This document shows, piece after piece, positions 15,012-34,763 of a stretch of 34,763 nt of DNA. Each line of letters opens with the position of its first letter. Position 1 is the stretch's first letter. Made by a program: the position numbers and the translations under genes. Below the pieces are notes generated by a model. It saw only the letters and a program-made list of their open reading frames with translations, had not been told where the DNA came from and made no database searches. The DNA is from FCB group bacterium. Its GTDB lineage: Bacteria > Fidelibacterota > Marinisomatia > Marinisomatales > J089. The stretch is from contig JAADFQ010000074.1 of NCBI GenBank assembly GCA_013152835.1, positions 1-34,763 on the forward strand. Direction: 5' to 3'.

Positions 15012-16268
15012 TCAGGATTTTTTCTGCATATTCTTTATTTTAAAGATCAACATAATCACCAGGAACGAAGCGGCCATAATCATAATGAATAAATTGACTC
15101 TTCGCTGGTTATATTCCGCCAAGGCTCCCTGGGCACCTTCCAAGGCATTGGCGGTAGCCTTGAATCCGGGTTCAGCGGTTTTTTGAACCGTAGCGAAATT
15201 AAAACTGTGGATGCTGGTTCGTGTCTGAATCAACGCGCGACGGGAGTCATCCAGATCAGCATACAAATCACTGACTTCCATTCCCAGTTGTTCCGCATGT
15301 TCTATCTTTTTCTGTGCCCGTTCATAGCGCACGGATAAACTGTCGATCACGCTATCCATTTGGGTGGCCAGAATCGCCGCTTTATCACCATGCTGTTCAT
15401 GGCAGGACTGGCAGACAAATTTCTGCGTTCCGACTTTCAGCAAATCATCCGTGGGATGTTGAATCCCATGATTGCCATGGCATTCAATACATTGTTTCGC
15501 GCCCATTTCCAGCATGTCATAGTTCAGGTGACTGGAAATGAAAAGTTTTCGGTTATTTACGTGGCAGGTCCCACAAATGTCGGCGATGGTTACCACATCC
15601 GGCGGCAACGCACCATGGTTTCCATGACAGTCATTACAGGCCGGAGCTCCGATATCATTTTCTTCCAATAGCGCCTTTCCGTGAACGGAAGTCTGATACT
15701 TTTCAAACTGATCCGTCGGGATATTGAATTCTGCCATGTAATCCGCATTTCCGTGGCAGGAATTACAGGTTTCCGGCACGTGCGTCGGATACACCGGTGA
15801 ACGGGGATCATCTTTGGGAAAGATACCGTGGACTCCGTGACAACTGGTACACACGGCCACTTTCGAATTGCCCTCTTTCAGCAATTTACCGTGTTGACTG
15901 GTCCAGTATTGTTGAATTTCATCAGTTCGTACCGAGGCCGTGTACTGGCGCATGAAATTGGGGTCCGTATGACATTTTCCGCAAACGTCCGGCTGATCTT
16001 CCCGGGGGACGGCGCCGATAAATGTATCATTATCCCACATAGCGGCATCGGGATCATCGAAAGCCGTGGGATCGCCGCCGTGACAATCGGCACAGCTCAG
16101 TCCTACCTGCAAATGGATATCCTCATCGATATGCGTCATAATCCGGGCATCTTCATCCCGGTCTTCATCCACCGCTAAATGGCATGCGTAACAGGCATCT
16201 TTCCGGAGAACATCACCGGATAACAAGGTTCCGAAAACCAGGACAGTAATTGTAAGTACATGTTTCAT
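15012..16268 (-). CDS. Nonaheme c-type cytochrome with C-terminal TM anchor
   Basis: Nine CxxCH motifs; C-terminal LFIMIMAASFLVIMLIFKI; internal Met start MKHVLTITVLVFGTLLSG. Confidence 0.85.
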   Translation of the reverse strand: MKHVLTITVLVFGTLLSGDVLRKDACYACHLAVDEDRDEDARIMTHIDEDIHLQVGLSCADCHGGDPTAFDDPDAAMWDNDTFIGAVPREDQPDVCGKCHTDPNFMRQYTASVRTDEIQQYWTSQHGKLLKEGNSKVAVCTSCHGVHGIFPKDDPRSPVYPTHVPETCNSCHGNADYMAEFNIPTDQFEKYQTSVHGKALLEENDIGAPACNDCHGNHGALPPDVVTIADICGTCHVNNRKLFISSHLNYDMLEMGAKQCIECHGNHGIQHPTDDLLKVGTQKFVCQSCHEQHGDKAAILATQMDSVIDSLSVRYERAQKKIEHAEQLGMEVSDLYADLDDSRRALIQTRTSIHSFNFATVQKTAEPGFKATANALEGAQGALAEYNQRRVNLFIMIMAASFLVIMLIFKIKNMQKKS

Positions 16269-17332
16269 ACCAGGTACCCCCAGACAGTCATGACAATAAT
16301 AAAGGCAACCGCAAAAATACCTACCCGATTCCATTTTTTATCACTGAAATTCGGATCTCCGGCATGTTTATCCAGAAACGGTACCAGCATCCAGATGGCT
16401 CCGCCGATCATAAAGATCAGCACCCCGAACAGTTCCCCTTCCATGAACAGGAAATGGGCCGGGATTTGTTTCAGGGTCTGGAACATGAACATAAAGTACC
16501 ATTCGGGCCTGATTCCGGCGGGAGCCGGCGCCAGCGGATCGGCTTTATTTCCCAGTTCCCAGGGAAAAAACAGGGCTAACAGGGCAATAATGTTGAATAC
16601 GACCAACCAAACCGTCACATCGCGCAACACAAAATTGGGAAAGAAAGGAATGGAACCCCGGCGTTTTTCCGGTTTTTGTTCCAGTTCAGGAGGTACGCTC
16701 ATTCCCTGAAACTGGACCAGCATGAGATGCACTCCGAGAATCAGGATGGCCACCAGCGGTAAAACCGCCACATGAAAACCGTAAAACCGGGTCAGCGTCG
16801 CACCGCTGACTTCATCGCCTGCCCGGAGAAACTTCAGGATAAAATCACCGACGAAAGGTAAGGCACCGGCTATTTCGGTACCGACTCGCGTGGCAAAATA
16901 GGATAATTCATTCCACGGAAGTAAATAGCCCGAAAAGCCGAATCCCAGGGCCACAAATAAAAGGAGCATGCCGGAAAGCCAGGTCATTTCCCGCGGTTTA
17001 CGATAGGCTTTGGCAAAGAATACGGTAAACATATGCAGGAAAATGAACAGGATGAACAGATTGGCCGACCAACTATGCATTTCACGAACCAGCCAGCCAA
17101 AACTCACTTTACTGACAATAAATTTCACACTTTCGTAAGCAGTATTAATTCCCGGCTGATAATAGAAGGTTAACATAATTCCGGTAAATATCTGGATGAT
17201 GAAAAGGAATAAAGCGACACCCCCAAGATAGTACCAGACGGTACCATAGAAAACCGGCACCTCTTTCTTTTTGGCAAATTTCCGAGCCGCTTCCAGACTG
17301 ATGCGCTCGTCAATCCAGTCAATGATCTTCAT
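16265..17332 (-). CDS. Cytochrome b subunit of a bc-type complex
   Basis: WYYLGGVALFLFIIQIFTGIML, REMHSWSANLFILFIFLHMF, PEWYFMFMFQTLK. Confidence 0.9.
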   Translation of the reverse strand: MKIIDWIDERISLEAARKFAKKKEVPVFYGTVWYYLGGVALFLFIIQIFTGIMLTFYYQPGINTAYESVKFIVSKVSFGWLVREMHSWSANLFILFIFLHMFTVFFAKAYRKPREMTWLSGMLLLFVALGFGFSGYLLPWNELSYFATRVGTEIAGALPFVGDFILKFLRAGDEVSGATLTRFYGFHVAVLPLVAILILGVHLMLVQFQGMSVPPELEQKPEKRRGSIPFFPNFVLRDVTVWLVVFNIIALLALFFPWELGNKADPLAPAPAGIRPEWYFMFMFQTLKQIPAHFLFMEGELFGVLIFMIGGAIWMLVPFLDKHAGDPNFSDKKWNRVGIFAVAFIIVMTVWGYLV

Positions 17333-17796
17333 CAGGCAACTTCTCCCTTCATGACAATCACTTTGTCATTTTGTACCTCGGCGACCATGCGGGTCAAAGG
17401 TCTGGGGGGTGGGCCGGATATATTATTGCCGTTAATGTCGTATTTCCCGTTATGACAGGCACACCAGATAATTCCCGCATCCGGCAAATACTGGACCGTG
17501 CAGTCCAGATGCGTGCAGGTAGCTGTCAGGGCAGTGAATTCACCGTTTTTCTTTCGAATAACAATCACTGGTTTCCGGCCGAAGCGAACAATTTTAGCGG
17601 AATTATTGGGAAATTCCGCGACCAATCCCGCCTCTACCTGATTGACTGAAATATTCGCCACTTTGGGCGGTACCATATATTTTATTAATGGATAAAACAA
17701 GGTTCCCAACCAGGCAATCACGCTTACACCGAGGAGATTGTCTATAAATGTTCTCCTGGATTTAGATTGAACAGGCTTTTCAGTATCTACCATCAT
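17332..17796 (-). CDS. Rieske [2Fe-2S] protein
   Basis: CTHLDCTVQYLPDAGIIWCACHNGKYD; N-terminal TM. Confidence 0.9.
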   Translation of the reverse strand: MMVDTEKPVQSKSRRTFIDNLLGVSVIAWLGTLFYPLIKYMVPPKVANISVNQVEAGLVAEFPNNSAKIVRFGRKPVIVIRKKNGEFTALTATCTHLDCTVQYLPDAGIIWCACHNGKYDINGNNISGPPPRPLTRMVAEVQNDKVIVMKGEVA

Positions 17797-18622: not shown

Positions 18623-19003
18623 TTATTCCTCGGCTAAACTATCCACGACGATCCATTGATAGATGAGGTCATATTGTCGAACATCATTAAGGTAAATGTA
18701 CATGGATCTGATCGATACGTCCGCTGGTTTTAATTTTAATAAGGCAAACGAATTTGCGTCACCGGGAAGAAAATCATCGGAACTGTGAATTGAACTATAG
18801 CTTCGCAAATCCAAATCCTTTATCATCTCATCCACCCCATGACAGCGGATACATTGCCGATCGAAAATAGGCTTTATATGATCCACATAGGTTACCCGGT
18901 CGGGCAAGGATTCCGTCATTGACGAGTTGATATCAACGCAACCGTAAAGAACCAGACTAAAGAGTAACACGGTCCCGATGATTACTGATGACAATAACCG
19001 CAA
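18623..19003 (-). CDS. Monoheme cytochrome-like lipoprotein (PSD1/planctomycete cyt c-like)
   Basis: TTG start preceded by AAAGGAG; lipobox LVLYGC; FDRQCIRCHGVDEM. Confidence 0.6.
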   Translation of the reverse strand: MRLLSSVIIGTVLLFSLVLYGCVDINSSMTESLPDRVTYVDHIKPIFDRQCIRCHGVDEMIKDLDLRSYSSIHSSDDFLPGDANSFALLKLKPADVSIRSMYIYLNDVRQYDLIYQWIVVDSLAEE

Positions 19004-20148
19004 AAGCCCACTCCTTTGGTTGTTTCCGGTTGATGACAGACAAAGCACATAGAGATCGGTTCCGTACACCAATCGCCCTGGGTATCATGCATATAATTCG
19101 GTGCATGTGTTTTGGGATCCGTGTTTTGAACGCCATCGCGATCGGAATGACATTGCACACATAACGGATCGGCTCCCTCTACATCATGACAGGACGCACA
19201 GAGTTCAATGTCCCGACGGGCCATTTCCGCATGGCGGCCTCCGGTGATATTGTCGGCAAAATCAGTATTGTTGCCGTATTTCACTGCCCCCCAGTCGCTG
19301 CCTCCGTGAAAATCGGGTTTATTCAATAACAGGTCATCAGAATTCTGATGGCAGTCCGAACAAAATTCCTGGTATTCGTGACAAACCTGGCAATCCCGCG
19401 CTTTGGTGGTGGCATCCAAACCATGGGTAAATTCGTAATCCAGCGCATGATTCCGTTCCAGTAACAGCTTCCCTTTCATCAGGTCTTTCCGAAAAGACGG
19501 GGCCGGGTTCATCCGGGACAGATCATCCTGACCCAGCCGGGAACCGCTATGGCAATTGTCACAGGTCAGTTGCGTATGACAAAGTTGACAATCAGCCGAT
19601 TCGGAAAGCGCCGCTATATCATGATCCGTAATCCAGGCGGAGGTATGATTTTGGGGTCTCAGAAAAGCCACATTATCATGACAGGCATCGCAATTCTCCG
19701 GGCCCTGTTTTTCCCGATGACAGCTCAGACAATCGGCCATTTTGGGAATCGGCGGACGATTTTCAACATCGGCCATATCGCTGTGGCATTGTTCACAGGT
19801 CAGTTTCTGATCAATATAGTGCAATTTATGGGAAAACTTGAAGCTGCGCGTCACCGGTGCGAAAGTCCGGTACGGTTCATCACCCAAATGGCAGGTTTCG
19901 CATTCGCCATCTTCTTTCCAGGTTTTATGACATTTCATACAGCGCTTTTCCGTAGGCAGAATTCGATCGGCGGAACTTTCGCTGGTTTTCAATACTTTGG
20001 GATTATGGCATTTTGTGCACCGGACGCCAATTTCATTCACGTGCAGGTCATGATTAAAGGTCACCACCAGCGGGCGATCCGTATTCTGAGCCCACAGGGC
20101 CGTTAGTAACAGGCCAAATCCAATTACTCTATCGATCCGAATCCTCAT
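18982..20148 (-). CDS. 14-heme c-type cytochrome
   Basis: 14 CxxCH motifs, signal peptide MRIRIDRVIGFGLLLTALWAQN. Confidence 0.9.
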   Translation of the reverse strand: MRIRIDRVIGFGLLLTALWAQNTDRPLVVTFNHDLHVNEIGVRCTKCHNPKVLKTSESSADRILPTEKRCMKCHKTWKEDGECETCHLGDEPYRTFAPVTRSFKFSHKLHYIDQKLTCEQCHSDMADVENRPPIPKMADCLSCHREKQGPENCDACHDNVAFLRPQNHTSAWITDHDIAALSESADCQLCHTQLTCDNCHSGSRLGQDDLSRMNPAPSFRKDLMKGKLLLERNHALDYEFTHGLDATTKARDCQVCHEYQEFCSDCHQNSDDLLLNKPDFHGGSDWGAVKYGNNTDFADNITGGRHAEMARRDIELCASCHDVEGADPLCVQCHSDRDGVQNTDPKTHAPNYMHDTQGDWCTEPISMCFVCHQPETTKGVGFCGYCHQ

Positions 20149-21371
20149 ATTCGCACTCTCAGACCCAGTTGAAAGCGGGTGTCGTTGGTATAGTAGGGAT
20201 TTCGTAACACATGAACTTCACTGCGCAATGTCAAGCGATCGGTCAGCAGGTATTCACCGGTTAGAGATACCGTGGATAAATCGTCCCAATTCCCTTCCAG
20301 CAAACGATAATTCCCGATCGTAGTTCGTGCCGCCAGGGATAATTTCTCCCAGGGTTTGCGGATACCCACTACCAGCCGATTCGAACTCCCACCATAGCCC
20401 TCCTGTCGAATAACATTCACTGCAAAATTAGTATGATTGACGCCAATCGATACTATATCGGCGGATTCACCGGAAAACCACACGTGCCGAAATGAAAACG
20501 AACCCTGAACCCGATCGGTCAATTGATTGCGGCCGCTTAACCGTACTTCACTGGAGGCGGATGAATTGAACACGGAAAAAATGGAATTTTCGGGGATCCG
20601 GGGAGTACGATACTGATATTCCAGCGCCAATGATTGCAGGGGCGTCTGCGATGATCCGCGATAATTACCATGGATCACAAAATCACTGATCGAAAAATCG
20701 TTGGTATAATTACGCATACGTACAAAGGTGGTCCACCTTGATTTCCTGAACGTTCCCTGGACACCCAGTAAACTGCGGAGATTCGGGGAAACTTCCTGGG
20801 GACTTCTTTCTGTTCCGTACGTACGGCTGTGGGCTTTCTGACTCAACCCGGCTTTCAGATCCAGTGCTGAAGTTGCCTTCCAACCCAGTTGCATTCCCCA
20901 GAAATGACTATTGATCGGATCGGATGTCCATCCCGAGGCCGGGACGTAGCCACCGGCAAAGCCAAGCAGGGACATTTTTTTCCGGTTGTAGGTAACCTTG
21001 AGTCCATCCATCCGGGCCACATCCGACACGGCATAAATAAACTGCCGGCCAAGATGAACCTGGAGTTTGCGTTGCATCCAGACCGTCGAATAGACCACAT
21101 TATACATATTGAATACCGGATCCACATCAAAAGCATTGACGGGATCCAGATAAAAAACGCCGGAAATAGTAAGGCGGCTGCCTTTGAGAAGGACATCATT
21201 TCCCCGGATCATAAATGATTCGTATACCCGGACATGGGTCAGCGTGCTGTCCCCCGGGTTCTGTCGGGCAAAGGAATAGGCGCTGGTATTCAGATAGGCA
21301 TTAAAACTGCGGGGACAGGCAACTCCGATCAGCAGGAGTATCCCGGCAATCCGCCAATAGGATCGCAGCAT
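20145..21371 (-). CDS. Outer-membrane beta-barrel-like protein
   Basis: Signal region; repeated amphipathic strands alternating aromatic/polar residues; terminates RFQLGLRVRI; ATG at 21371 one base after the upstream stop. Confidence 0.65.
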   Translation of the reverse strand: MLRSYWRIAGILLLIGVACPRSFNAYLNTSAYSFARQNPGDSTLTHVRVYESFMIRGNDVLLKGSRLTISGVFYLDPVNAFDVDPVFNMYNVVYSTVWMQRKLQVHLGRQFIYAVSDVARMDGLKVTYNRKKMSLLGFAGGYVPASGWTSDPINSHFWGMQLGWKATSALDLKAGLSQKAHSRTYGTERSPQEVSPNLRSLLGVQGTFRKSRWTTFVRMRNYTNDFSISDFVIHGNYRGSSQTPLQSLALEYQYRTPRIPENSIFSVFNSSASSEVRLSGRNQLTDRVQGSFSFRHVWFSGESADIVSIGVNHTNFAVNVIRQEGYGGSSNRLVVGIRKPWEKLSLAARTTIGNYRLLEGNWDDLSTVSLTGEYLLTDRLTLRSEVHVLRNPYYTNDTRFQLGLRVRI

Positions 21372-21372
21372 A

Positions 21373-21624
21373 TCAGTCGTGGGGTCTCGCTTTTCGAATT
21401 CCAATAAATACGTAGGTCAGGATACCGGCCAGTAATGTAAAAATCGGCAGTACTACTAAGGATATAATCAGGGTGGCGTTTTGAGCATCGTGGAGATAGC
21501 GGGATAATGAAATCAGATTCAAGATCCAGGTAATCACACTTACGACCATAATCCAGATCAGAGAGATACTGAAGATTTGAAGAAAAAATATTAATCCGGA
21601 CGGGTTCGTCTTTGGTTCAGACAT
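21373..21624 (-). CDS. Small two-TM membrane protein
   Basis: MSEPKTNPSGLIFFLQIFSISLIWIMVVSVITWIL...LIISLVVLPIFTLLAGILTYVFIGIRKARPHD. Confidence 0.65.
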   Translation of the reverse strand: MSEPKTNPSGLIFFLQIFSISLIWIMVVSVITWILNLISLSRYLHDAQNATLIISLVVLPIFTLLAGILTYVFIGIRKARPHD

Positions 21625-21626
21625 GA

Positions 21627-22967
21627 TCAGGCTCCTTCCCCGGCTACATCCGTATCCGGCAAATAGGATTCCAAACGTTCTTTTACGGCTTCCAGACCTT
21701 CTGCGCGCCCGTCCTTGATTTCCCAGATGGAAATCAACGGGAATACTTTGGAGAATAAAAGGAACATCATACAAAAGGCGGCAACACCACCGGCAAAAAG
21801 GGACCATTCGGTCAGCGACGGAATATAGGGTTCGCTCACGACCGGCAACCGGGGATTGGATAAAGATGGAACAATAATGATCAACCGTTCCAGCCACATC
21901 CCGATAATTACGGAAAAGGAAGCTACCAGAATGCCGGGTATTTTTTTCAGCTTCTTGAAAGCCAGAATGATCACCGGAATGACAAAATTAAGCAATACCA
22001 TCATCCAGAAGAAGGGTGCATACGCTCCGGAGAACTTGAACTGAATAACCCGCATTTCCATCGGTTCATTCCCGTAAATACCGGTCAGGAATTCACTGAA
22101 CGTGAAATACCCCCAGAGCAGGGCGAAAACCAATAGCAGAACGCTCAAATACTGGAAATGAATTTCCTTCAGATAATTTTCCAGATGATAGAATTTCCTG
22201 AAGAAAATCATCACCACCAGAAGCGTGGCGGTTCCGGAAAAAATAGCGCCGGTGACGAAATAGGGCCCGAAAATGGTGCTGTGCCAACCGGACTGGAGCG
22301 TCATGGAGAAAATGTACGAAATCACCGTATGTACACTGACCGCAACCGGAATGACGACCACCATTAAGATTGACATCGCTCGTTCCAGAACGTGCTTTTG
22401 CCGTTCGGTGCCCACATATCCCCAGCTCAGCCACGTGTATAACTTTTTAAATTTCGTCGTGTGATCCCGGAGTAGGGCAATATCGGGAATCAACGGCACA
22501 TACAAGTAGACCGTACTGGCGGTAAAGTACAGGGAAATGGCGGTAACATCCCACAGGAGCGGTGATTGGAGTCGGCCATAGAAGAAAACATTCAGTACCC
22601 GGTCAGGGCGACCCAAATCGATAATCGGATGCAAACCGCCGATTGCCAGAACGATGGCTGTAATGACTTCCGCCATCCGGGTAATCGGTCGGCGCCACTC
22701 TGCCTGAGATAAACGCAGGATGGCCGAAATCAAGGTCCCGGCATGACTGACACCGATAAAGAACACGAAATTGATGATATAAAAGCCCCATGTGACGGTC
22801 CGATTTAATCCGGTCACGCCCAATCCGTAAACCAGTTGCCGGATGTACATGACAATGGCCCATACAACAACGGCCCCTAAAAAACCAATTGCCCAGTAAA
22901 ACCGTCGATCACTTTCCAGAATCGGCCGATACAGTGTATAATCCGGATCTTTGCGCAACGCATCCAT
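21627..22967 (-). CDS. NrfD/ActC-like polytopic quinol-interacting subunit
   Basis: FYIINFVFFIGVSHAGTLISAILRL, DLGRPDRVLNVFFYGRLQSPLLWDV. Confidence 0.85.
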   Translation of the reverse strand: MDALRKDPDYTLYRPILESDRRFYWAIGFLGAVVVWAIVMYIRQLVYGLGVTGLNRTVTWGFYIINFVFFIGVSHAGTLISAILRLSQAEWRRPITRMAEVITAIVLAIGGLHPIIDLGRPDRVLNVFFYGRLQSPLLWDVTAISLYFTASTVYLYVPLIPDIALLRDHTTKFKKLYTWLSWGYVGTERQKHVLERAMSILMVVVIPVAVSVHTVISYIFSMTLQSGWHSTIFGPYFVTGAIFSGTATLLVVMIFFRKFYHLENYLKEIHFQYLSVLLLVFALLWGYFTFSEFLTGIYGNEPMEMRVIQFKFSGAYAPFFWMMVLLNFVIPVIILAFKKLKKIPGILVASFSVIIGMWLERLIIIVPSLSNPRLPVVSEPYIPSLTEWSLFAGGVAAFCMMFLLFSKVFPLISIWEIKDGRAEGLEAVKERLESYLPDTDVAGEGA

Positions 22968-23653
22968 TATTTATCTTCCTTTTTAAGATAATAAACTTTC
23001 GGATCAGTTCCCAATTCCTCGTCCAGACGAAACGCCCGACTGGAATGGATCAGTGTGGCCACCCGGTGGTCCGGATTTTCCAGATCACCAAAGGTCATGG
23101 CGTCGGCCGGACAGGATTCCACACAGGCCGGTTGGAAATCTTCTTCCCTCAATTCCCGGTTTTCGAATCGGGCCAAATCCTTGGCCAGGGAAAGCCGATG
23201 ATGGCAGAAACTGCATTTTTCAACCACACCTTTCATTCGGCGGGTCACATCCGGATTGCGGATCCCTTCGTAAGATTCGGGAATATCCGGTTCAAAATAG
23301 TTGAATTTCTTCGCCGAATACGGACAGGCAGCCATACAAAACCGGCAGCCGATACACCGGTAATACACCTGCCCGACCAATCCTTCCTCATTTAAAAAGG
23401 TGGCATGCACCGGACATACTTTTGTACACGGCGGATTGTCGCACTGAAAACACGGTCGCGGAATATGGGTAACCCGGACATCCGGATATTCGCCTTCATA
23501 TTCGGTCACGATTTGCATCCAGTCCAGGGCGCGTCCCTTTTGCGCTTCTTCTTCGCCAACATTGGGTATGTTGTTTTCAATGCGACAGGCATTGACGCAG
23601 GCGCCGCATCCCGTGCATTTATTTAAATCAATTACCATTCCCCATTTAGTCAT
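22967..23653 (-). CDS. 4Fe-4S ferredoxin-type electron-transfer subunit (NrfC/PsrB-like)
   Basis: CTGCGACVNAC, CFQCDNPPCTKVC, CIGCRFCMAAC, CSFC...CVESC: 16 Cys in four cluster motifs. Confidence 0.9.
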   Translation of the reverse strand: MTKWGMVIDLNKCTGCGACVNACRIENNIPNVGEEEAQKGRALDWMQIVTEYEGEYPDVRVTHIPRPCFQCDNPPCTKVCPVHATFLNEEGLVGQVYYRCIGCRFCMAACPYSAKKFNYFEPDIPESYEGIRNPDVTRRMKGVVEKCSFCHHRLSLAKDLARFENRELREEDFQPACVESCPADAMTFGDLENPDHRVATLIHSSRAFRLDEELGTDPKVYYLKKEDK

Positions 23654-23656
23654 GAT

Positions 23657-26074
23657 CTATCCTATCGTAATCCGTACTGGAGTTCCTGACAAAATAATAT
23701 TCCCCCGGTTTACTTCCGGTTGAGCGACAATCAACTCCCGCGGATCAGTCCCGACCCCTGAGGTAAATCGCCCGACCCCTTCACGTCCCAGTCCCAGGGG
23801 TATAAAGACCACATCGGGATGGATAATCGGACGCACCCGCGCCCGGACCTTGATAACACCGACCGGCGAATCCAATTGAATTTTTGTTCCGTCGCGTACA
23901 CCCATTTTCCGGGCTGTCTCTGGATGGATTTCAACCCAGTTTTCCCAGTGAATTTCCCGCAGATGACCGAAAGTTTCCACGAGGGTCGGAGAATAGACCG
24001 TCCGTCCATACGGATTGGTAATGGGATATCCGGTCATAAGCGTTAATGGATATCCTGCCGAATCAGAAGCCGTGTATTTTTCCATTTCAGTCGGATATCG
24101 GGAACCGGTCATCATTTTGATGCTTTGCACCTCATCCCGGGCGGACCCGTCATAGGATTTCAACAGAGGTGACATGAAATCAAAACGTTTTACCGAACCG
24201 TTCAATACCTGGCTAAACGGAGTACTGGTTCTACCGGCCGGATCCCACCAGCCGCCGACTTTGAGCAAGGCTTTCAGGAAAGTACGTTCCGCCGTGGTGA
24301 TGGACACCGGTTCATGGTCCATGTACATCCGGGCCCAGTCTTCCTTGGTTTGCTCAGCATACAATAGTCCCTTCTTGTCGGAATAAATCTTCTGCAATCG
24401 CTTTTTCACTACCGTTTTGGCATTTTTCCCCGGAAAGATTCGGGGTTCGATCCCCGGCAGGGAAGCTGCTACCGTTTTCAGGATATCATAACTGCTTTTC
24501 GTATCATACATGGGATCCAAGACGGGGCGCTGCAAGGTAGCGGAAGCAACCGGAACACCGGGAATATCTTCTACAAGGTCCCAATCCTCTAAAGGAGAAT
24601 GGGTCGGAAGCAGAACATCGGCATGGGCGCTGGTTTCATTGGGTAAATCACCGATAAACACGACGCGTGGTACATGTTTCAGCAGGGTTTTCCACTTGGT
24701 TCGGTTCTCTCCGTAATAGACCGGATTTGCACGATTAATGATAATGAGTTCAATGGAATAGGGCGCATATCCTTCCACCCGTTTGGCAAATATATCCAAA
24801 GATGGTTTTTCCAGGGGATGAGCTTCGTTGGTCTTAAAGAGATTTTGAACATCTTTCCCTTTGAATTCCTGTCGAAAGAGTTTTTCCCCTTGGCTGGAAA
24901 AATCAAAATACCATCCGCCGGGTTGCTGCACTGCTCCCAGCATGTAATTCAGACAGTGGGCGGCCCAGGAATGAAAATCACCGCGAGGCGACTGCTGGGC
25001 TTCGCTTCCGCTAAGGATAACCGGCTTGTCGCGTTCGATAATCAGATTTGCCAAATCTACGATATCTTCTTCCGGAATGCCGGTAATTTCCTCCACTCGT
25101 TTGGGATGAAATTCAGAGCGCACCAGTTTCTCAAAGCCCTCGTGGGTTCGGCCCTGGGCATCCTTCCAGTCACCGAATCCATGACTGTTCTTACGCAGGT
25201 GTCCCAGATCCACTTTTGGTGAATCCATCAGTAAATGAGCCAATCCCAGAGCCAGGGCACCCCAGGTATCGGGATTCAAGGGAATCCAGCGGTGAGAACT
25301 GGCGGCAGTGATATTGGCCCGGGGTCCCACGTAAACCAGTTTATTCCGGGTTACGTTGGACAAATCTTTAAACTGACTTATGACCTGGTTGAAGTGTACG
25401 GACGCCCCGTCCTCTTCCAGAAAATTGGCGCCTAAGCTGATAATACAATCGGCATTGATGATGTCGAAGGTCGGTTCCAAATCCACGCCCTGGGTAAGGC
25501 GAGCGGAATTGGACCCGTAACTGACATGGGATTCCTGATAATAATTCGGTGTTCCCAGCCAGTTAGCAAAATTCCGCCAGATTTCCTGCATTACCGGGGA
25601 ATCATCCCCGTTGATAATGGCAATTTTATAGGTTTGATTACGGGTGATCAGATCCTGGATATTCCGGCTCAGTGATCCCAACGCCTCATCCCAGGAAACC
25701 GGAAGCAATTCTTTTTGAATCGGTCCTTCCGGTCGGGCCATGGGAATGGTCAAACGATCCGGATGATACAGTATTTCCAGATTGGCATAGGTTGCCGGGC
25801 AGGTTCCGCCACGGTTAATCGGCGATAAGGTATTGCCTTTTAAACTAATCGGGACTTCATTTAACCGTTTTATCGACAAGCTGCAGCCGCCGGGACACAG
25901 ACGACAGGCGGTATTTTTCCAGGTAATTGTCCCTTCCCCCCGGCGTAATTGTTGAATGGTTTTTTCCGACAGCCCCAGAACCTGGGGGAATGCGGCGGAA
26001 GCCACGATGCCACCGGTAGCAACACCGGTGATTTTCAGGAAATCACGCCGACTTAGAAATTTTTTATCAAACAT
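23657..26074 (-). CDS. Molybdopterin oxidoreductase-family protein (Tat-exported)
   Basis: SRRDFLK Tat motif; CRLCPGGC...C [4Fe-4S] motif; PVSWDEALGSL; C-terminal molydopterin dinucleotide-binding domain region. Confidence 0.85.
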   Translation of the reverse strand: MFDKKFLSRRDFLKITGVATGGIVASAAFPQVLGLSEKTIQQLRRGEGTITWKNTACRLCPGGCSLSIKRLNEVPISLKGNTLSPINRGGTCPATYANLEILYHPDRLTIPMARPEGPIQKELLPVSWDEALGSLSRNIQDLITRNQTYKIAIINGDDSPVMQEIWRNFANWLGTPNYYQESHVSYGSNSARLTQGVDLEPTFDIINADCIISLGANFLEEDGASVHFNQVISQFKDLSNVTRNKLVYVGPRANITAASSHRWIPLNPDTWGALALGLAHLLMDSPKVDLGHLRKNSHGFGDWKDAQGRTHEGFEKLVRSEFHPKRVEEITGIPEEDIVDLANLIIERDKPVILSGSEAQQSPRGDFHSWAAHCLNYMLGAVQQPGGWYFDFSSQGEKLFRQEFKGKDVQNLFKTNEAHPLEKPSLDIFAKRVEGYAPYSIELIIINRANPVYYGENRTKWKTLLKHVPRVVFIGDLPNETSAHADVLLPTHSPLEDWDLVEDIPGVPVASATLQRPVLDPMYDTKSSYDILKTVAASLPGIEPRIFPGKNAKTVVKKRLQKIYSDKKGLLYAEQTKEDWARMYMDHEPVSITTAERTFLKALLKVGGWWDPAGRTSTPFSQVLNGSVKRFDFMSPLLKSYDGSARDEVQSIKMMTGSRYPTEMEKYTASDSAGYPLTLMTGYPITNPYGRTVYSPTLVETFGHLREIHWENWVEIHPETARKMGVRDGTKIQLDSPVGVIKVRARVRPIIHPDVVFIPLGLGREGVGRFTSGVGTDPRELIVAQPEVNRGNIILSGTPVRITIG

Positions 26075-26582
26075 GGCAGGTCAGACAATCGTTAGATATG
26101 GATTTTTGGTCATGGCAGTTCATACAGCGCTTCATTTGAATGGGAACCAATTGATGATCTGCCGGTTTGGTCAATTTTTCAACGTCTCCATGACAATCAG
26201 AACAGGGTATTTTTCCGGAGGTAACATGGCGGCGATGGGAAAAAAATACATGCTCCGGTAACGTATAAATCCGGTTCCATGGAATCTCTTCCTTATTGGT
26301 TACCGCCTCCACGACCTTGGCTTCTTCCTTGCTTTCACCCTGCATTTCCGAGTGGCAGGTCTGACACCGTTTTATGGAGGGCAAAGTAGCCTGAATCTTG
26401 GTCTCCGCTCCCACATGACAATCGGTGCAATAGAGACCCGCTTCCGATACATGAATCGAATGATTATAGGCAATTGGCTGGGTAATTTTTTCTGTGGAGT
26501 TACAACCGTAAAGCCCCAGTATAATCGCTGCAAAAAGCAGTTCTTTACGGCCGAAAAATCCTGTTTGTTTCAATGTTACCAA
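26067..26582 (-). CDS. Pentaheme c-type cytochrome lipoprotein
   Basis: Five CxxCH motifs; lipobox-like LGLYGCNST. Confidence 0.85.
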   Translation of the reverse strand: MVTLKQTGFFGRKELLFAAIILGLYGCNSTEKITQPIAYNHSIHVSEAGLYCTDCHVGAETKIQATLPSIKRCQTCHSEMQGESKEEAKVVEAVTNKEEIPWNRIYTLPEHVFFSHRRHVTSGKIPCSDCHGDVEKLTKPADHQLVPIQMKRCMNCHDQKSISNDCLTCHV

Positions 26583-27157
26583 TCCTCATCTTCCTCTTCG
26601 TCGCCGGTATCACAGGTGTAATCGGGATTTTTATGATGTTCTATTTTAGGATAATAAACAGCGTAATCGAAAGGTTTGTATTTTGGACTTTCTTCGTTGT
26701 GACAGGTTAGGCAGTCTTTCGACGTCGGCAGGATTAATCCGTTTGCTTTAGCGGTTTCCACATCACACATAATATCCTGCTGCCGATATTTTTCCCCGGG
26801 ACCATGACAACTTTCGCATTGGATGCCTTTGGTCTTGTCAAATTTTTTCCCAAATTCCGCACCATCGACATTGTACCCGGTGACATGGCATTTTAAACAT
26901 TCCGGTGCTTCATTAGCCGGTGTTTTCAAACCACGTTCTTTCACTATTTTCGCCGCCTCTTCGCCCAGCAGCGTTTCATAAGCCTTGGCGTGGGCGGTTC
27001 CCGACCAAACGGCGTATTGATTACCCATTTCAGCGGTTTCATGGCAGACCTTGCAGCGGTCCACTCCTACGTAGGCATGTGTTGTCTCCCCCTCTCCCTC
27101 AGAACCATATAGGAAGGCAAATAAAATTGTTAGGATAGATACTATGGTTCTTGGCAT
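26576..27157 (-). CDS. Tetraheme cytochrome c (cytochrome c-554-like)
   Basis: YVGVDRCKVCHETAEMGNQYAVWSGTAHAKAYETL; four CxxCH motifs. Confidence 0.85.
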   Translation of the reverse strand: MPRTIVSILTILFAFLYGSEGEGETTHAYVGVDRCKVCHETAEMGNQYAVWSGTAHAKAYETLLGEEAAKIVKERGLKTPANEAPECLKCHVTGYNVDGAEFGKKFDKTKGIQCESCHGPGEKYRQQDIMCDVETAKANGLILPTSKDCLTCHNEESPKYKPFDYAVYYPKIEHHKNPDYTCDTGDEEEDEDW

Positions 27158-27727: not shown

Positions 27728-27760
27728 AAAGCCCCGGATTTCAGTAAAATCCGGGGCTTT
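27728..27760 (-). terminator. Rho-independent terminator downstream of the 16-heme cytochrome
   Basis: AAAGCCCCGGATTT...AAATCCGGGGCTTT stem, T tract on the minus strand. Confidence 0.8.
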
Positions 27761-27779: not shown

Positions 27780-30536
27780 TTATTTCAGTAGGACCATTTT
27801 CACCTGATGAACTTCATTACCGGTGTTCATCCGGGCGAAATAGAGTCCCGCTGGGGCTGCTTGTCCGGAATCCATGCGGCCATTCCAGGTTATCTGGTGA
27901 TGTCCGGGAGTCATGGATTCAGCAATTAATGTCCGTACCTTGTTGCCCAGTAAGTCGAAGACTTCGAGGGTAACGTTGGTGGTCACGGGAACATCAAAAG
28001 TCAGCGTGGTTACCGGATTAAACGGATTCGGATAATTCTGCTTCAGAGCAAACGCTGTGGGCAGTTCCGTCTCATCACCGGTACTGACGGTACCGTGCAT
28101 GGTGGCCGCTTCTTCGGCAGCTTCCGCCAAGGTCATATCCGGGATGCTGTCGGCCGGATCATCATTATGGCAACTCATGCAGGAATAGGCCGGAGACAGG
28201 CTGGCCGGACGAGTATCGTCATCCCGCACAGCGCCGCCATCATCCGTAAACATGGATAATGTATCAGGTGCAATCCTGAAGATATGCGACCGTACATCGC
28301 CCTTGTACCCGCTCTGACCGCGAGTCGTGCCGGATTTTGCCGCGTAGGGCATATGGCATTCCACACATTCCTGGGTGCCCTGATGCGTCAAATTCGCTAC
28401 CTGCGCCGGGTGACACGTGGAGCATTCCATTTTGATCCCCTGACCATCCCAGAGAACCCGCTTATGCGGATCGTGACAAGTGGTGCAATTCAGACCGGCA
28501 TCATCGTGCGGACTGGCGGAGAATTCATCCCATTGTTCATGATGGCGAATGAATCCACCGGAGGCATTTATCGGATCAGTATAACTCCGGTTATGGCAGG
28601 TTCCGCAAAGGAAATTCACATCGTCACCACTTGCATCAGGAGTAATGACAACACCATCTTTTTCCAATCCACCCAGACTATTATCCAAATGGGCGAACTC
28701 ATAAACGCGGTCAATATAGGCCGGATTTCCGGTCTGTACATGATTGCTACCCGGTCCATGACAGGCTTCACAGCCAATGCCACCTTCGGTGAATGTGCCG
28801 AGCCCATCCACTCCCGTAAGCCAGGTTCCGGTGGTATCGCCGCCTGTTGTATGACACTTAAAACAACTGTAGTTGTAGATTTTCGTATCACCGGTATGGT
28901 AATCCGCCCAGCCATAGTCCACGCCATCGTAGAAGTTGAACTGATTATGGCCCGCGCCCGGATCAACGGCTGCCGTTCCGGTACCAACGATTTGTCCATC
29001 GGTTCCGACGAACCGAGCCTTCCAGCCGAATCCGCCGATCACACCGGCAATTTCGGACCAACTGTGATTCCCATTCCCAAGATCGGTCAGCCAATTATCT
29101 TCAAAATTGGTAACAAAATCGGGATATGTCGGAGCCGTGGCATTTTCAATAACATTGAATTTATAGGGATGTCCGGAATTATTCCATTCATCCACAATAT
29201 TATATCCAAGGTTGCTGTTAACTTCGTTATGACAGGCCGCACAGGTTTCCGAGCCGACAAAGGTGGGATCGTCGGCGGGAGTGGCAACATGCATATTCTG
29301 TGCCGTATTCACAACCTGTTCAAGCGTCATGTCCGGAATCCCGTCTGCGGGGTCATCGTTATGACAACCCAGGCAGGAATACGCCGGAGACAATGAGGCC
29401 TGGCGAGTTGCATCATCCCGGACGGCTGAACCATCATCCGTGAACATGGATTCCGCATTCGGTGTAATCTTCCATAAGTGAGAACGTACATCGCCCTTAT
29501 AGCCGCTTTCGCCGCGGGTCGTTCCGGACTTGGCCGCATAGGGCATATGACATTCAATACAGGTCTGCGTTCCTGCGTGGTTGATGGTCGTATTTTCTGT
29601 CGGATGGCAGGTGGAACATTCCATGGTAATACCGTCACCGTCCCATAAAACCCGTTTGTGGGGATTATGGCAGGAGGTGCATTTCAGTCCTGCGCCAAAG
29701 TGATCCGAAGCTACAAATTCATCCCACTGTTCGTGGTGTCGGATGAATCCCCCGCTCGCATTAATGGGATCCGTATAGCTCCTGTTGTGGCAGGTACCGC
29801 AGAGAAAGTTCACGTCATTTCCGCTGGGATCCGGTGTTATTACCGAACCGTCGATTTCCAATCCGCCGGATGCGTTATCCAGATGAGCAAATTCGTACAC
29901 CCGGTCAATATTGCTGGTGGACGGGCTGGAAACATGATCGCTTCCCGGGCCATGACAGGCTTCGCAACCAATGCCGCCTTCATTAAAGGTACCCAATCCA
30001 TCCACACCGGTAAGCCAGGTGCCGGTTGTATCGCCACCCGTCGTATGACACTTAAAACAACTGTAGTTGTAGATTTTTGTGTCACCGGTATGATAGTCAG
30101 CCCAGCCGTAATCCACACCGCCATAAAAATTGAACTGATTATGGCCCGCACCCGGATCAACGGCTGCCGTCCCGGTACCAACGATTTGACCGTCAGTTCC
30201 GACGAAACGGGCTTTCCAGCCGAATCCACCGATAACACCGGCAATTTCGGACCAGCTATGATTCCCATTCCCCAGTTCCGTCATCCAGTTATCTTCAAAG
30301 TTTACCACGAAATCCGGGTATGTCGGTGCCGTGGCATTTTCTATAACTGAAAACTTATAGGGATGTCCAGAGTTTGTCCAGGAATCATAGATGTTGTATC
30401 CCACTCCGGTAACATCAGCGGTACCATGACAGGCCTGACAGGCTGCGGAACCAACGTATGTCTGTCCCCATCCCATCCCGGTCAACAGTAAAACTGATAA
30501 CACCATTGCGGATGTTTTTCTTATCTTTTTATTCAT
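27780..30536 (-). CDS. 16-heme cytochrome c with T9SS-type C-terminal sorting domain
   Basis: 16 CxxCH motifs in two near-identical octaheme repeats; C-terminal LKQNYPNPFNPVTTLTFDV...VKMVLLK. Confidence 0.9.
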   Translation of the reverse strand: MNKKIRKTSAMVLSVLLLTGMGWGQTYVGSAACQACHGTADVTGVGYNIYDSWTNSGHPYKFSVIENATAPTYPDFVVNFEDNWMTELGNGNHSWSEIAGVIGGFGWKARFVGTDGQIVGTGTAAVDPGAGHNQFNFYGGVDYGWADYHTGDTKIYNYSCFKCHTTGGDTTGTWLTGVDGLGTFNEGGIGCEACHGPGSDHVSSPSTSNIDRVYEFAHLDNASGGLEIDGSVITPDPSGNDVNFLCGTCHNRSYTDPINASGGFIRHHEQWDEFVASDHFGAGLKCTSCHNPHKRVLWDGDGITMECSTCHPTENTTINHAGTQTCIECHMPYAAKSGTTRGESGYKGDVRSHLWKITPNAESMFTDDGSAVRDDATRQASLSPAYSCLGCHNDDPADGIPDMTLEQVVNTAQNMHVATPADDPTFVGSETCAACHNEVNSNLGYNIVDEWNNSGHPYKFNVIENATAPTYPDFVTNFEDNWLTDLGNGNHSWSEIAGVIGGFGWKARFVGTDGQIVGTGTAAVDPGAGHNQFNFYDGVDYGWADYHTGDTKIYNYSCFKCHTTGGDTTGTWLTGVDGLGTFTEGGIGCEACHGPGSNHVQTGNPAYIDRVYEFAHLDNSLGGLEKDGVVITPDASGDDVNFLCGTCHNRSYTDPINASGGFIRHHEQWDEFSASPHDDAGLNCTTCHDPHKRVLWDGQGIKMECSTCHPAQVANLTHQGTQECVECHMPYAAKSGTTRGQSGYKGDVRSHIFRIAPDTLSMFTDDGGAVRDDDTRPASLSPAYSCMSCHNDDPADSIPDMTLAEAAEEAATMHGTVSTGDETELPTAFALKQNYPNPFNPVTTLTFDVPVTTNVTLEVFDLLGNKVRTLIAESMTPGHHQITWNGRMDSGQAAPAGLYFARMNTGNEVHQVKMVLLK
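28090..30465 (-). repeat. Intragenic tandem duplication (two ~1.2 kb units)
   Basis: Proteins VGSAACQACH...CLGCHNDDPADGIPDM and VGSETCAACH...CMSCHNDDPADSIPDM are near-identical across most of their length; DNA text also closely matches. Confidence 0.85.
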
Positions 30537-30691
30537 TCCTTCCTCCTAGTAAAGTAATGAAATCATTAAAACGGACCTTTTTATCCGAATAATGTGTGGG
30601 ATATTATTAAGATTGTATTAAAATCTGCTTAGAAAATCATTAAAGTTTTCTAATTTTACAGTCAATAACCACCATGTACAGGAGGCCCATA

Positions 30692-31366
30692 ATGAGAATC
30701 CTCGTTGTGGAAGATGAACCGGCAATCGGGAGCTACATTCAGGATTGTTTTGTGGAACGAGGTTATAGTGTGGACTGGGTGACCACCTGCGAACAGGCCC
30801 TGGAAACGGCCGTTGTTGAGGACTATGACAGCATTATTCTGGACCGGAGATTACCGGATAAAGACGGCTTATTTGTTTGCAGTGAATTGCGCAGTCAGGG
30901 AATCACCGTACCGATCCTGGTACTGACGGCACTTTCCGGTATCGATCAGCGTGTGGAAGGGTTGAACGTTGGCGCCGACGATTATTTACTGAAGCCCTTT
31001 GCCATGGATGAACTGGTGGCACGCGTTCAAGCTCTGATTCGTCGTTCCTCCTATCGGAATCAACCGAATTTGACCATCCGGAATATTTCGTTGAATTCCC
31101 TCAACCGAAACGTGACGGTTAACGGGGAACAAATCCCACTTTCCAACCGGGAATTTTTACTATTGGAATATCTGATGCGACATGCGGATCAAGCGCTAAC
31201 CCGTTCGCAAATACTGGAACATGTCTGGGAAACACAACGGGATTCCGATACCAATATCGTCGACGTGTACATCAACTATTTGCGGAAAAAGATCGATGTT
31301 CCACAGAAAACTTCCAATATTGAAACCGTCCGCGGATTCGGGTATCGATTTCGGTATGAAGACTGA
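30692..31366 (+). CDS. OmpR-family response regulator
   Basis: MRILVVEDEPAIGSYIQD, LDRRLPDKDG, LTA, KPFAMDELVARV; winged-helix C-terminus; AGGAGG upstream. Confidence 0.9.
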   Translation: MRILVVEDEPAIGSYIQDCFVERGYSVDWVTTCEQALETAVVEDYDSIILDRRLPDKDGLFVCSELRSQGITVPILVLTALSGIDQRVEGLNVGADDYLLKPFAMDELVARVQALIRRSSYRNQPNLTIRNISLNSLNRNVTVNGEQIPLSNREFLLLEYLMRHADQALTRSQILEHVWETQRDSDTNIVDVYINYLRKKIDVPQKTSNIETVRGFGYRFRYED

Positions 31367-32753
31367 ACTCAGTCTGCAACGCCGGATCACGCTCTGGTCC
31401 ACGCTGGTTGTATCGCTGATTTTCATCGTGTTCATCGTTCTGGTGATTCTGGCCCTGGATAATCAGCTAAAATGGGACTTGGATCATCGAATTGACGAAG
31501 AAGCGAACGCCGTGGAACTTTCGATATTCCACACCGATTCAGGTATTTCCATTGATGAATCCATTGAATGGCGCGAACCTCATCATCAGGATATGGATGA
31601 TGAGTCCATGGTTCTTATGATCCTGAACGAAAACCTCCATTTAATTCGTCGCTCACCCAATTTCCCGTTTTCTCCCGAATTAATCCAATCCTTTGTCTTT
31701 GACCCGACCGACTCCAATTATTATACCCGATCGTTTATGGACCTGGAAATGCGCTTTTTGGTTAAACCAATTCCTTTTGCGAATCAGACTCTGGTATGGA
31801 TTATTGTTGGCAAATCATTCAACTCGATCCATCAAATTCTTAAAGAAGTATTCACCATTTTTCTTTTTTCCTTCCCGGTAGCCTTGATTATGGTGTATTG
31901 GGGTAGTTTATTTTTAGCACGAAAATCTTTGCGACCGGTTCGGGCCATATCTGAAAAAGCACGCCAATTCAAATCCTCGAATCTGTCCCAGCGACTCCCG
32001 GTTCCCCGTACCGATGATGACATTGCACACCTTGCGATTACCTTAAATGAATTGCTGGATCGATTGGAAACAACCGTGGTCAGCTTACGGAACATAGCTG
32101 CGAATGCTTCCCATGAGATAAAAACACCGGTCACTATTCTGTATACCTACCTGGACCGCTGGGCGCAGACCCATCCCGATATGGATACCCATGAAATTCT
32201 GTCCTTTCGGAGCGAATTAAACCGCATCACGAAAATCATTGATAATTTGTCACAAATCGCAAAAACCGATTCCGGAGCAGCCAAATTACAATTTGATACG
32301 GTGTGGATGAATGACCTGCTGTATGAAGAAATTGAACGCTTCCGACCCCAGGCGCTGATGAAGGATATTACCATTCAGGTCAAACCGCTTCCTTCCGTAG
32401 CCATTGAAGGGGACGAATCATGGCTCCACCTGGCCCTGGGAAATCTGATCGAAAACGCCCTGAAATATTCCCCGGAACATTCCTCCATTTCCTTGAAAAT
32501 GGAATCCACCGATGCTCACACACTTATGGTGACCATCTCCGATGAAGGCCACGGTGTCCCGGAGCAAGATTTAGAACTACTGACGGCCCGGTATTTCCGC
32601 AGTAAACAGTCCCGGCCCGGAACCGGTCTGGGACTTGCAATCGCCCATTGGGTCGTGCAACAACATCATGGAAAACTGCGGTTTGCCAATAATCCTACCG
32701 GAGGGCTCACGGTTCAGGTCTGCCTTCCGGAACAATATAATCCCGGTACATAA
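31356..32753 (+). CDS. Sensor histidine kinase
   Basis: NASHEIKTPVTILYTYLD H-box, NLIENALKYSP N-box, DEGHGVPEQD, GTGLGLAIAHWVV; HAMP-like linker; overlaps the response regulator by 11 nt. Confidence 0.9.
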   Translation: MKTELSLQRRITLWSTLVVSLIFIVFIVLVILALDNQLKWDLDHRIDEEANAVELSIFHTDSGISIDESIEWREPHHQDMDDESMVLMILNENLHLIRRSPNFPFSPELIQSFVFDPTDSNYYTRSFMDLEMRFLVKPIPFANQTLVWIIVGKSFNSIHQILKEVFTIFLFSFPVALIMVYWGSLFLARKSLRPVRAISEKARQFKSSNLSQRLPVPRTDDDIAHLAITLNELLDRLETTVVSLRNIAANASHEIKTPVTILYTYLDRWAQTHPDMDTHEILSFRSELNRITKIIDNLSQIAKTDSGAAKLQFDTVWMNDLLYEEIERFRPQALMKDITIQVKPLPSVAIEGDESWLHLALGNLIENALKYSPEHSSISLKMESTDAHTLMVTISDEGHGVPEQDLELLTARYFRSKQSRPGTGLGLAIAHWVVQQHHGKLRFANNPTGGLTVQVCLPEQYNPGT

Positions 32754-32924: not shown

Positions 32925-33980
32925 ATGGATGACTTGATGACACCCCGCCCCAACGCTCACCTTCTCTTTTCCGCCGTTCCGGCCTTGGTGCGGTATCTCC
33001 AGACCCAAGCCACCGTGTACGCGCCCCATCGGTTCGGAGATACGTCCTACCGATTTGATCAGGTTCTGAGTCCTGACGCTGTGGTTCTGGACTATAACCG
33101 CACCCTCCAATCCATTAAGAAATATTTCCTGCCGCCCCGGGAAACGCTCCTTTCCTTCTCGCTGACTGAAGCCACCTTTGAGCCGGTTTCTGCCGAGTCG
33201 TCATTCCGGATCTTCCTGGGTGTTCACAGTTATGATCTACAGGCCTTGCTCCGCCTGGACTACAATTTCACTCACGGTCATCCCGAATCTAACTATTTGA
33301 AACGCAGGGAAAACTGCGCCTTTGTCGGTGTATCGTTTGAACCGGATGAAGTCCACTTCAGCCGATCCGTGGGAATTACCGTTGAGGAAATGGAAGGGTT
33401 TGACCTGTTCCTGGACCGACAGGATGACGGGTATGCGGTTTTTTTCCTTACCGACCGGGGAAAAGCCCTCCTGGAGGGGTTCACGGAGATTACCAAGGCC
33501 CGGAACCAGTCTCCGGTTCACCGGGAATTCCGGACGAAGATAAAATACAATTACAACCGGCTCTCGGAAGTCTTTGATCAGGCCTGGGATTCCCCGGTCT
33601 GGGAAGAAGTGGCGGAACGCTGTGTAGGCTGCGGCACCTGCAATCTGGTCTGTCCCACCTGCTATTGTTTCACGGTGGATGATGAGGTAAACCTAACCCT
33701 CACCGAAGGCATTCGAAAACGCACCTGGGACGGCTGCATGTTGAGTCAATTTGCTCAGGTAGCCGGTGGAGAAAATTTCCGCTATGAACGGAGCGCTCGT
33801 CAGCGGCACCGGGTGTATCGAAAATTTAAATATTTGAGCGATCCTACCGGGAGGCCCTGGTGTGTGGGCTGCGGTCGGTGTACCGCCTACTGTACGGCCC
33901 GCATCAGTATCGTGGACATTGTGAACCAACTTTGCGAGGATTACGAGCAGCGGATCCTCCATAAAAACGCCCTGGTGTGA
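32925..33980 (+). CDS. 4Fe-4S dicluster protein, sulfhydrogenase/hydrogenase beta-subunit-like
   Basis: CVGCGTCNLVCPTCYCF...CVGCGRCTAYC; next gene is HydG-like. Confidence 0.75.
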   Translation: MDDLMTPRPNAHLLFSAVPALVRYLQTQATVYAPHRFGDTSYRFDQVLSPDAVVLDYNRTLQSIKKYFLPPRETLLSFSLTEATFEPVSAESSFRIFLGVHSYDLQALLRLDYNFTHGHPESNYLKRRENCAFVGVSFEPDEVHFSRSVGITVEEMEGFDLFLDRQDDGYAVFFLTDRGKALLEGFTEITKARNQSPVHREFRTKIKYNYNRLSEVFDQAWDSPVWEEVAERCVGCGTCNLVCPTCYCFTVDDEVNLTLTEGIRKRTWDGCMLSQFAQVAGGENFRYERSARQRHRVYRKFKYLSDPTGRPWCVGCGRCTAYCTARISIVDIVNQLCEDYEQRILHKNALV

Positions 33981-33991
33981 AGGAGACGCTC

Positions 33992-34763
33992 ATGACCACG
34001 CCCTTCCCCATTAGCCGCCCACCCCTCCGTGAAACTGAGGATTTGTATTATCCCCAAATGGCCACCATTCTTCAGATGAAAGTCCTGACAGAACTGGAAA
34101 CCTGGTACGAAATCGCCCTGCCCGAAAACCGAACCCTGAATCATCAACCGGGACAGTTTGTTCAGGTCTCACTGTTCGGATATGGGGAAGCACCCATTTC
34201 CATTACGTCCGCTCCCAATGACCGGGGAACCTTTGAATTATGCATCCGGAGAGTGGGACGGCTCACCAGCGCCCTCCATCGCCTCCAACCGGGAGATTCA
34301 GTGGGTATCCGGGGACCCTTCGGCCGGGGATTCGATTTAACCAAATTTCGGGGTCAGGATGTCCTGATCATCGGTGGCGGCATTGGTATTGTACCACTCC
34401 GCTCCCTGATCCAAACCCTGATCCGCGATCGCTCCGACTACGGGCGGTTATTCATATTGTACGGCGCCAAACATCCGGACGAATTGTTGTACCCGGAGGA
34501 TCGGAAACACTGGGCCAACGATCCGACGATTGAATTTGCCCTCACGGTGGATCGCCCCTCCGCCGACTGGACAGACCGGACAGGCGTCATTACCACCCTC
34601 ATTCCGCCGCTGGATCTGGACCTCAACCGTACTGTCGCCGCAGTGGTGGGTCCTCCGATCATGTATAAATTTGTACTCATGGCCCTGAAATCCAAGCGGT
34701 TACCGGAGAACCGGATTTACCTGTCCCTGGAGCGACGGATGAAATGCGGTGTAGGGAAATGTG
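33992..34763 (+). CDS. FAD/NAD(P)-binding oxidoreductase, hydrogenase gamma-subunit-like (partial, runs off window)
   Basis: MTTPFPISRPPLRETEDLYYPQMATILQMK...HQPGQFVQVSLFGYGEAPISITSAP...LIIGGGIGIVPLRSLI...LSLERRMKCGVGKC; not in the ORF track because it has no stop in the window. Confidence 0.8.
   Translation, partial: MTTPFPISRPPLRETEDLYYPQMATILQMKVLTELETWYEIALPENRTLNHQPGQFVQVSLFGYGEAPISITSAPNDRGTFELCIRRVGRLTSALHRLQPGDSVGIRGPFGRGFDLTKFRGQDVLIIGGGIGIVPLRSLIQTLIRDRSDYGRLFILYGAKHPDELLYPEDRKHWANDPTIEFALTVDRPSADWTDRTGVITTLIPPLDLDLNRTVAAVVGPPIMYKFVLMALKSKRLPENRIYLSLERRMKCGVGKC

Follow-up and report, generated by a model that had tools for sequence, protein, structure and literature searches.

A 16-heme cytochrome whose product joins two octaheme units in tandem to a type IX secretion system (T9SS) sorting domain was identified in a Neomarinimicrobiota bacterium of the FCB group, and it probably acts as a surface terminal reductase, one used for electron transfer out of the cell or for acceptors of many kinds. 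The gene lies in the window, by which we mean the whole 34,763-nucleotide stretch of DNA that was analyzed (Table 1). Its 918-residue product contains exactly 16 CxxCH motifs, eight per unit, and 32 of 32 cysteines fall within them. The two units of about 395 residues are collinear (hemes 1 to 8 and 9 to 16), at a spacing of 1194 nt. The open reading frame, the heme count, and the TIGR04183 match described below bear out the architecture given in a preliminary description of this DNA, namely, two octaheme repeats followed by a C-terminal T9SS domain.

Table 1. Features of the 16-heme cytochrome gene and its neighbors in the window
Feature	Position	Strand	Basis and remarks
16-heme cytochrome gene	27780..30536	(-)	Single 918-aa ORF with two octaheme units and T9SS sorting domain; ORF, heme count, and family matches
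Signal peptide of 16-heme cytochrome			Sec-type, ~25 aa; MNKKIRKTSAMVLSVLLLTGMGWGQ
Octaheme unit 1	29277..30455	(-)	Residues ~28-420; CxxCH at 33, 160, 191, 246, 286, 307, 326, 388
His-His motif, unit 1	29733..29738	(-)	H267-H268; predicted over heme 2; HHE conservation and OcwA alignment
Octaheme unit 2	28068..29267	(-)	Residues ~424-823; CxxCH at 432, 558, 589, 644, 684, 705, 724, 786
His-His motif, unit 2	28539..28544	(-)	H665-H666; predicted over heme 2; HHE conservation and OcwA alignment
T9SS type A sorting domain	27783..28040	(-)	C-terminal, residues ~833-918 (~85 aa), YPNPFNPVT-type; TIGR04183 match and PorU CTD structure match
Likely intrinsic terminator	27730..27758	(-)	AGCCCCGGATTT / AAATCCGGGGCT GC-rich stem, then T run, just past the gene; read by eye
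c554-like tetraheme cytochrome	26576..27157	(-)	PF13435, 1.4e-20
Qrc-like quinone-linked complex	21627..26582	(-)	Four genes
QrcA-like pentaheme protein	26067-26582	(-)	NCBIfam QrcA, 89.7 bits, below equivalog cutoff
QrcB-like molybdopterin-fold protein	23657-26074	(-)	NCBIfam QrcB, 258.8 bits, below equivalog cutoff
QrcC-like FeS protein	22967-23653	(-)	NCBIfam QrcC, 299.5 bits, below equivalog cutoff
NrfD-type membrane subunit	21627-22967	(-)	NrfD over Pfam cutoff
Predicted 22-strand outer-membrane beta-barrel	20145..21404	(-)	AF2 pLDDT 85.7; top structure matches are outer-membrane barrels
14-heme cytochrome	18982..20148	(-)	14 CxxCH; overlaps barrel gene; candidate porin-cytochrome conduit with barrel
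OmpR-type response regulator	30674..31366	(+)	Divergent from cytochrome gene; conserved neighbor in several lineages
Sensor histidine kinase, same pair	31221..32753	(+)	True start probably near 31360; Pfam and neighbor survey

Sorting domain and predicted surface location

The C-terminal tail matched TIGR04183 (Por_Secre_tail) at 33.2 bits, above the cutoff of 23, whereas its score against Pfam PF18962 (24.6 bits) was just below the cutoff of 27; FlgD_ig was also matched above its own cutoff. In the structural model presented below, the tail aligned with the PorU CTD at Z 10.6 (VIA-align). The domain is like those of T9SS type A cargo (e.g., NucA and the PorU CTD) in sequence and fold, and the host carries T9SS genes; unlike in these examples, the protein bearing it is a multiheme cytochrome. 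The preliminary description had made T9SS export depend on PorU/SprA-type components, and both were found in the window's genome: SprA scored 145.7 bits (over the cutoff) and PorU 485.4 bits (cutoff, 420), alongside 12 PorV-family matches over the cutoff, and a similar tail was encoded at about 65 further places. The GldL search gave no match in this genome, nor in any control. Among the genomes with an octaheme unit, 28 of 30 had SprA, the exceptions being a Calditrichaceae MAG and a Planctomycetota MAG. The window itself contains two further genes with T9SS sorting domains, at 127-999 and 9885-11156 (+), one of which has Kelch repeats.

Complete relatives were sorted by pattern and by eye according to their N termini. 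Those with a tail have ordinary signal peptides, and those without one show a lipobox Cys, after which come acidic or polar residues (WSCED, SACSNE, TSCSKDD). The lipobox members are seven proteins of Neomarinimicrobiota family f30 and two from Bacteroidales (L084 and L101); a remote Planctomycetota protein belongs to neither the tail class nor the lipobox class. Since the tail is swapped for a lipobox, these sequences suggest that selection acts to keep the protein at the outer membrane or cell surface, and we infer that the putative tail-less lipoproteins likewise face outward. The same swap, the T9SS genes, and kinship with OcwA and OmhA (below) support, as a prediction, the earlier proposal that the 16-heme protein is exported by T9SS to the cell surface. 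That it is instead a soluble periplasmic carrier with a nonfunctional sorting domain is very unlikely: although the Pfam tail model falls slightly under its cutoff and the domain resembles FlgD Ig domains, the TIGR04183 score is over the cutoff, the genome holds T9SS genes and dozens of genes with the same tail, and complete members that are not lipoproteins retain the tail across phyla.

Relationship to OcwA, OmhA, and MccA

A profile of 42 unit sequences, searched against PDB sequences, matched MccA (5.2e-13), OmhA (5.4e-9), and OcwA (8.1e-9). An AlphaFold2 model of unit 2 plus the tail, built without hemes, had a moderate pLDDT of 73.9. Foldseek ranked MccA first for the unit model, and VIA-align, in comparisons covering 285 to 315 residues, gave Z 13.1 for OcwA (6i5b, over 288 residues), 12.0 for OmhA (6qvm), and 11.9 for MccA (4rkm). 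Model strands 76-81, 86-91, 110-116, and 119-125 fall between CxxCH 1 and 2 and make up a beta-sheet domain. Such a domain is common to OcwA and MccA, and OcwA hemes 1-4 and 6-9 superpose on MccA (PMC6703420).

OcwA is a nonaheme cell-surface terminal reductase of Thermincola potens (PMC6703420), and its heme-domain fold is like that of the unit, with 23% identity over the aligned residues. Also alike are the beta-sheet domain that separates heme 1 from heme 2, a His-His pair that aligns with the one at OcwA heme 2, and the surface location, which for the window protein is predicted. Unlike OcwA, the unit has eight hemes (OcwA heme 5 appears to be missing) and lacks the C-terminal three-helix bundle of its known relatives, the model showing one short helix (383-391) between heme 8 and the sorting domain; the window protein further differs in its tandem fusion, its T9SS tail, and its Gram-negative FCB host. 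OmhA, the undecaheme S-layer cytochrome of Carboxydothermus ferrireducens (PMC7829351), is similar by profile and by fold but has eleven hemes, is associated with the S-layer, and has neither tandem units nor a T9SS tail. The octaheme sulfite reductase MccA/SirA, the best profile match, has in common with the unit the number of hemes, a collinear motif order, and the beta-sheet domain. However, the 918-residue protein has no CX15CH or other CxnCH, no CxxCK, and no spare Cys for copper. An MccA identity was rejected for want of the CX15CH eighth site and the two copper Cys, and the unit is also about half as long as MccA and predicted not to be periplasmic.

The proposed role as outermost cytochrome is like that of Shewanella MtrC/OmcA. 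The window protein nonetheless belongs to a different fold family and carries a T9SS tail, in contrast to the T2SS lipoprotein export of MtrC/OmcA; membership in that family was rejected, TIGR03507 and PF22113 being absent from the matches of the 918-residue protein (E up to 0.01 and 0.1). Because the helix bundle is missing, we call the unit a relative of the branch and not a full OcwA or MccA. By profile and model, it fits best with the OcwA/MccA branch of NrfA-type cytochromes, as a short, copper-free relative with eight hemes.

Hemes 2 and 5 of OcwA are open, and a His-His pair is positioned over them (PMC6703420). The corresponding pair of the unit, H245-H246 in unit numbering, was invariant in 42 of 42 aligned sequences, and HHE was present in 49 of 49 units. 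It aligned with the HH at OcwA chain index 252-253, which would be HH281/282 if the numbering offset is 29, as the listed chain ranges suggest. By analogy, heme 2 of each unit may be open beneath the His-His pair. Several non-heme residues between hemes 1 and 2 were invariant as well (GG.GWK.RF, Q112, N114, Y126, and Y136).

Age and history of the tandem

The units had been described as near-identical, and their DNA identity had been read as a possible sign of recent duplication. In fact, protein identity between window units 1 and 2 is 80%, but DNA identity is 73% overall and 48% at third codon positions; dN is 0.15 and dS, at about 2.4-2.7, is saturated. This silent-site divergence contradicts the earlier claim and rules out a recent duplication of the window gene. 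By these codon comparisons, its units diverged long ago, and strong purifying selection on the protein has kept them alike. A recent unit copy is carried by the sister protein L081 (genome G030), to judge from units that are 96.7% identical in DNA with a dS of 0.065. Elsewhere, dS between units was about 0.9-1.0 in L094 and L107, 1.5 in L067, and 1.7-2.3 in L098.

The source is a draft MAG of 257 contigs and 88% completeness, in which an assembly artifact might be suspected. Such an origin of the tandem is extremely improbable, since saturated silent sites at 73% DNA identity are incompatible with the reads of a single copy placed twice. Moreover, one uninterrupted open frame spans both units, and a separate assembly (L081 in G030) and other phyla have the same architecture.

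When 49 units were placed in a tree, those of the same protein clustered in the window gene (support, 100/99), L081 (100/95), L094 (100/100), L107 (99/96), and L067 (99/92), and the three units of L098 sat inside a Saprospiraceae/Lewinellaceae clade. A single ancient duplication common to the window protein and L081 was rejected both when first units were held together (p-AU 7e-70) and when second units were (p-AU 4e-6). This clustering and the rejected by-position pairing point to repeated duplication or within-gene homogenization, two histories that the position-constrained tree test cannot separate. Over window unit residues 30-150, a region picked post hoc, identical residues used the same codon at a frequency of 0.63 versus 0.46 (p 0.003), at most a weak hint of partial homogenization there.

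Distribution and architectures of relatives

The octaheme unit was present in 17 of 245 Neomarinimicrobiota/Fidelibacterota genomes; the other listed member of the genus, an 81% complete genome, gave no match. A scan of named genomes placed the unit in Neomarinimicrobiota, Bacteroidota (Bacteroidales, Prolixibacteraceae, Saprospiraceae, and Lewinellaceae), and Calditrichota, as well as in MAGs labeled Chlorobiota and in the remote Planctomycetota member. The survey of unit number that the preliminary description had proposed found one, two, or three units in the relatives from Neomarinimicrobiota, Bacteroidota, and Calditrichota. One unit plus a tail is the commonest architecture. Two units occur in the window protein, L081, and L094, and probably in L097 and L095, both broken by contig gaps or ends; L098 has three units and 24 hemes. 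In other relatives, a seven-heme module of a different type is fused to one or two units (L065/L087, L068, and L078; L066/L107 and L067).

In L066, L067, L068, and L078, that module stands behind the octaheme units, giving T9SS proteins of 15 and 23 hemes, and it is weakly like GSU2203-type decaheme proteins. Units of family f30 and L070 that count seven CxxCH have CX3CH at the sixth site, and CX3CH at the sixth heme site was seen in L070, L074-L077, and L080. The Shewanella matches L117-L134, decaheme proteins that we take to be of the MtrA/DmsE sort, aligned over shared heme motifs only and were left out.

A unit number ranging from one to three and the fused seven-heme modules (15 and 23 hemes) fit a pure surface electron wire or capacitor, in which all hemes are bis-His and tandem copying is selected only for hemes per molecule; the conserved extra His would also be enough for eight distal ligands. 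For such a wire, though, an invariant His-His pair at the OcwA open-heme position is unexpected, as is the strong non-heme conservation between hemes 1 and 2, and we regard it as quite unlikely in its pure form.

Gene neighborhood

Downstream of the cytochrome gene lie a c554-like tetraheme cytochrome, a four-gene Qrc-like complex, a predicted beta-barrel, and a 14-heme cytochrome (Table 1). A c554-like tetraheme also adjoins the octaheme gene in genomes G030 (L041, by resemblance) and G092 (L087). In the latter genome (L065/L087), the c554-like tetraheme, together with genes whose heme motifs number 17, 17, and 11, comes before a 15-heme octaheme-unit fusion, and the multiheme genes there are very densely clustered. 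The barrel and the 14-heme cytochrome are kept together in close barrel homologues wherever both sides are readable, and the pair adjoins the octaheme gene in L105. Because the barrel belongs to no Pfam family, the pair may be an unnamed porin-cytochrome conduit. The same pair recurs in other Neomarinimicrobiota families (L136-L142), several times after an NrfD-sized gene.

Among the 245 genomes, 17 have the octaheme gene and 13 the barrel, with both present in only 4 of the 26 having either. This co-occurrence excludes a fixed partnership, and the conduit is therefore a probable partner in the window's genome, not a rule. Farther along, at 15012-17796 (-), a Rieske protein, a cytochrome b, and a 9-heme cytochrome stand in a row; they would form a bc-type complex with the multiheme cytochrome as its likely c subunit.

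On the other side, the OmpR-type regulator and its kinase adjoin the octaheme gene in the window, L081, f30, L090, L109, and L094. In Bacteroidales, a HisKA_3 kinase and a NarL-type regulator lie directly upstream, and a Crp/FNR-type gene runs divergently at five other loci. In 12 loci, the octaheme gene has near it a gene for a membrane hexaheme protein of the NrfH/NapC-like quinol dehydrogenase type, one of these being a nine-heme version from Planctomycetota, and several Bacteroidota carry a CcsA-type cytochrome assembly gene close by. Right after the window's kinase gene, homologues of the sulfhydrogenase (NAD(P)-linked hydrogenase) beta and gamma subunits occupy 32925-34762 (+), in an operon that leaves the contig end.

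NarL-type, OmpR-type, or FNR-like genes also adjoin substrate-induced reductases. They and the NrfH-like hexaheme partner in 12 loci favor a dedicated surface enzyme that acts on a single small molecule (nitrite, hydroxylamine, sulfite, polysulfide, tetrathionate, or the like) in detoxification or respiration, as opposed to a general electron outlet, as do the many invariant non-heme residues and the fact that the OcwA/MccA/NrfA kin are enzymes. Yet a soluble substrate makes surface export unnecessary, and the spare Cys for an MccA copper site, CxxCK, and CX15CH are all missing. Overall, we consider a single-substrate enzyme a minority prospect, if a stronger one than the wire.

Proposed function

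A surface terminal reductase, a single-substrate enzyme, and a wire are overlapping readings, among which we favor the surface reductase with moderate confidence. Besides the family match and the T9SS evidence, the surface reductase reading draws on the regulators and the NrfH/NapC-like partner found next to the gene in many lineages. The pre-protein would pass to the periplasm by Sec and there be loaded with heme and folded. T9SS cargo folds before export. SprA/PorV/PorU would then take the C-terminal domain and fix the folded protein to the outer surface. Electrons from the quinone pool would reach the 16-heme protein through periplasmic multiheme cytochromes, a route that in the window's genome probably comprises the Qrc-like complex, the c554-like tetraheme, and the barrel/14-heme conduit. 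From there, the hemes of each unit would carry them to an external acceptor such as a mineral, a humic substance, a shuttle, or a small oxyanion, which would probably bind at heme 2, beneath the His-His pair. With two fused units, every exported molecule would have a longer heme chain and two sites of exit.

Octaheme relatives of OmhA and OcwA "of unassigned function" have already been noted in Proteobacteria and Bacteroidetes (PMC7829351). Our search of the open-access literature found no paper joining T9SS with multiheme cytochromes, and neither T9SS nor any of these phyla comes up in the main text of a survey from 2024 that deals with outer-membrane multiheme cytochromes (PMC11475568). As far as we have checked, the combination of an OcwA-type unit, a T9SS tail, recurrent tandem copying, and an anchor swap is undescribed.

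More broadly, and tentatively, with the odds somewhat against it, the FCB group may have a surface electron-transfer system of its own, in which OcwA-type octaheme reductases would be loaded with heme in the periplasm, exported folded by T9SS, repeatedly lengthened in tandem (8, 16, and 24 hemes) into covalent multisite surface conductors, and placed under dedicated two-component control. If so, a surface reductase would be carried by phyla that abound in sediments and oxygen-poor water yet are rarely counted as electroactive, and surveys built on models of the MtrC type or of porin-cytochromes could overlook it. Surface reductases of the OcwA/OmhA type, which are known from thermophiles that are Gram-positive, would extend to Gram-negative bacteria, and type IX secretion would be an export route for a heme-loaded protein. 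Members with one, two, and three units would offer a natural series for the effects of heme-chain length and active-site number on electron transfer.
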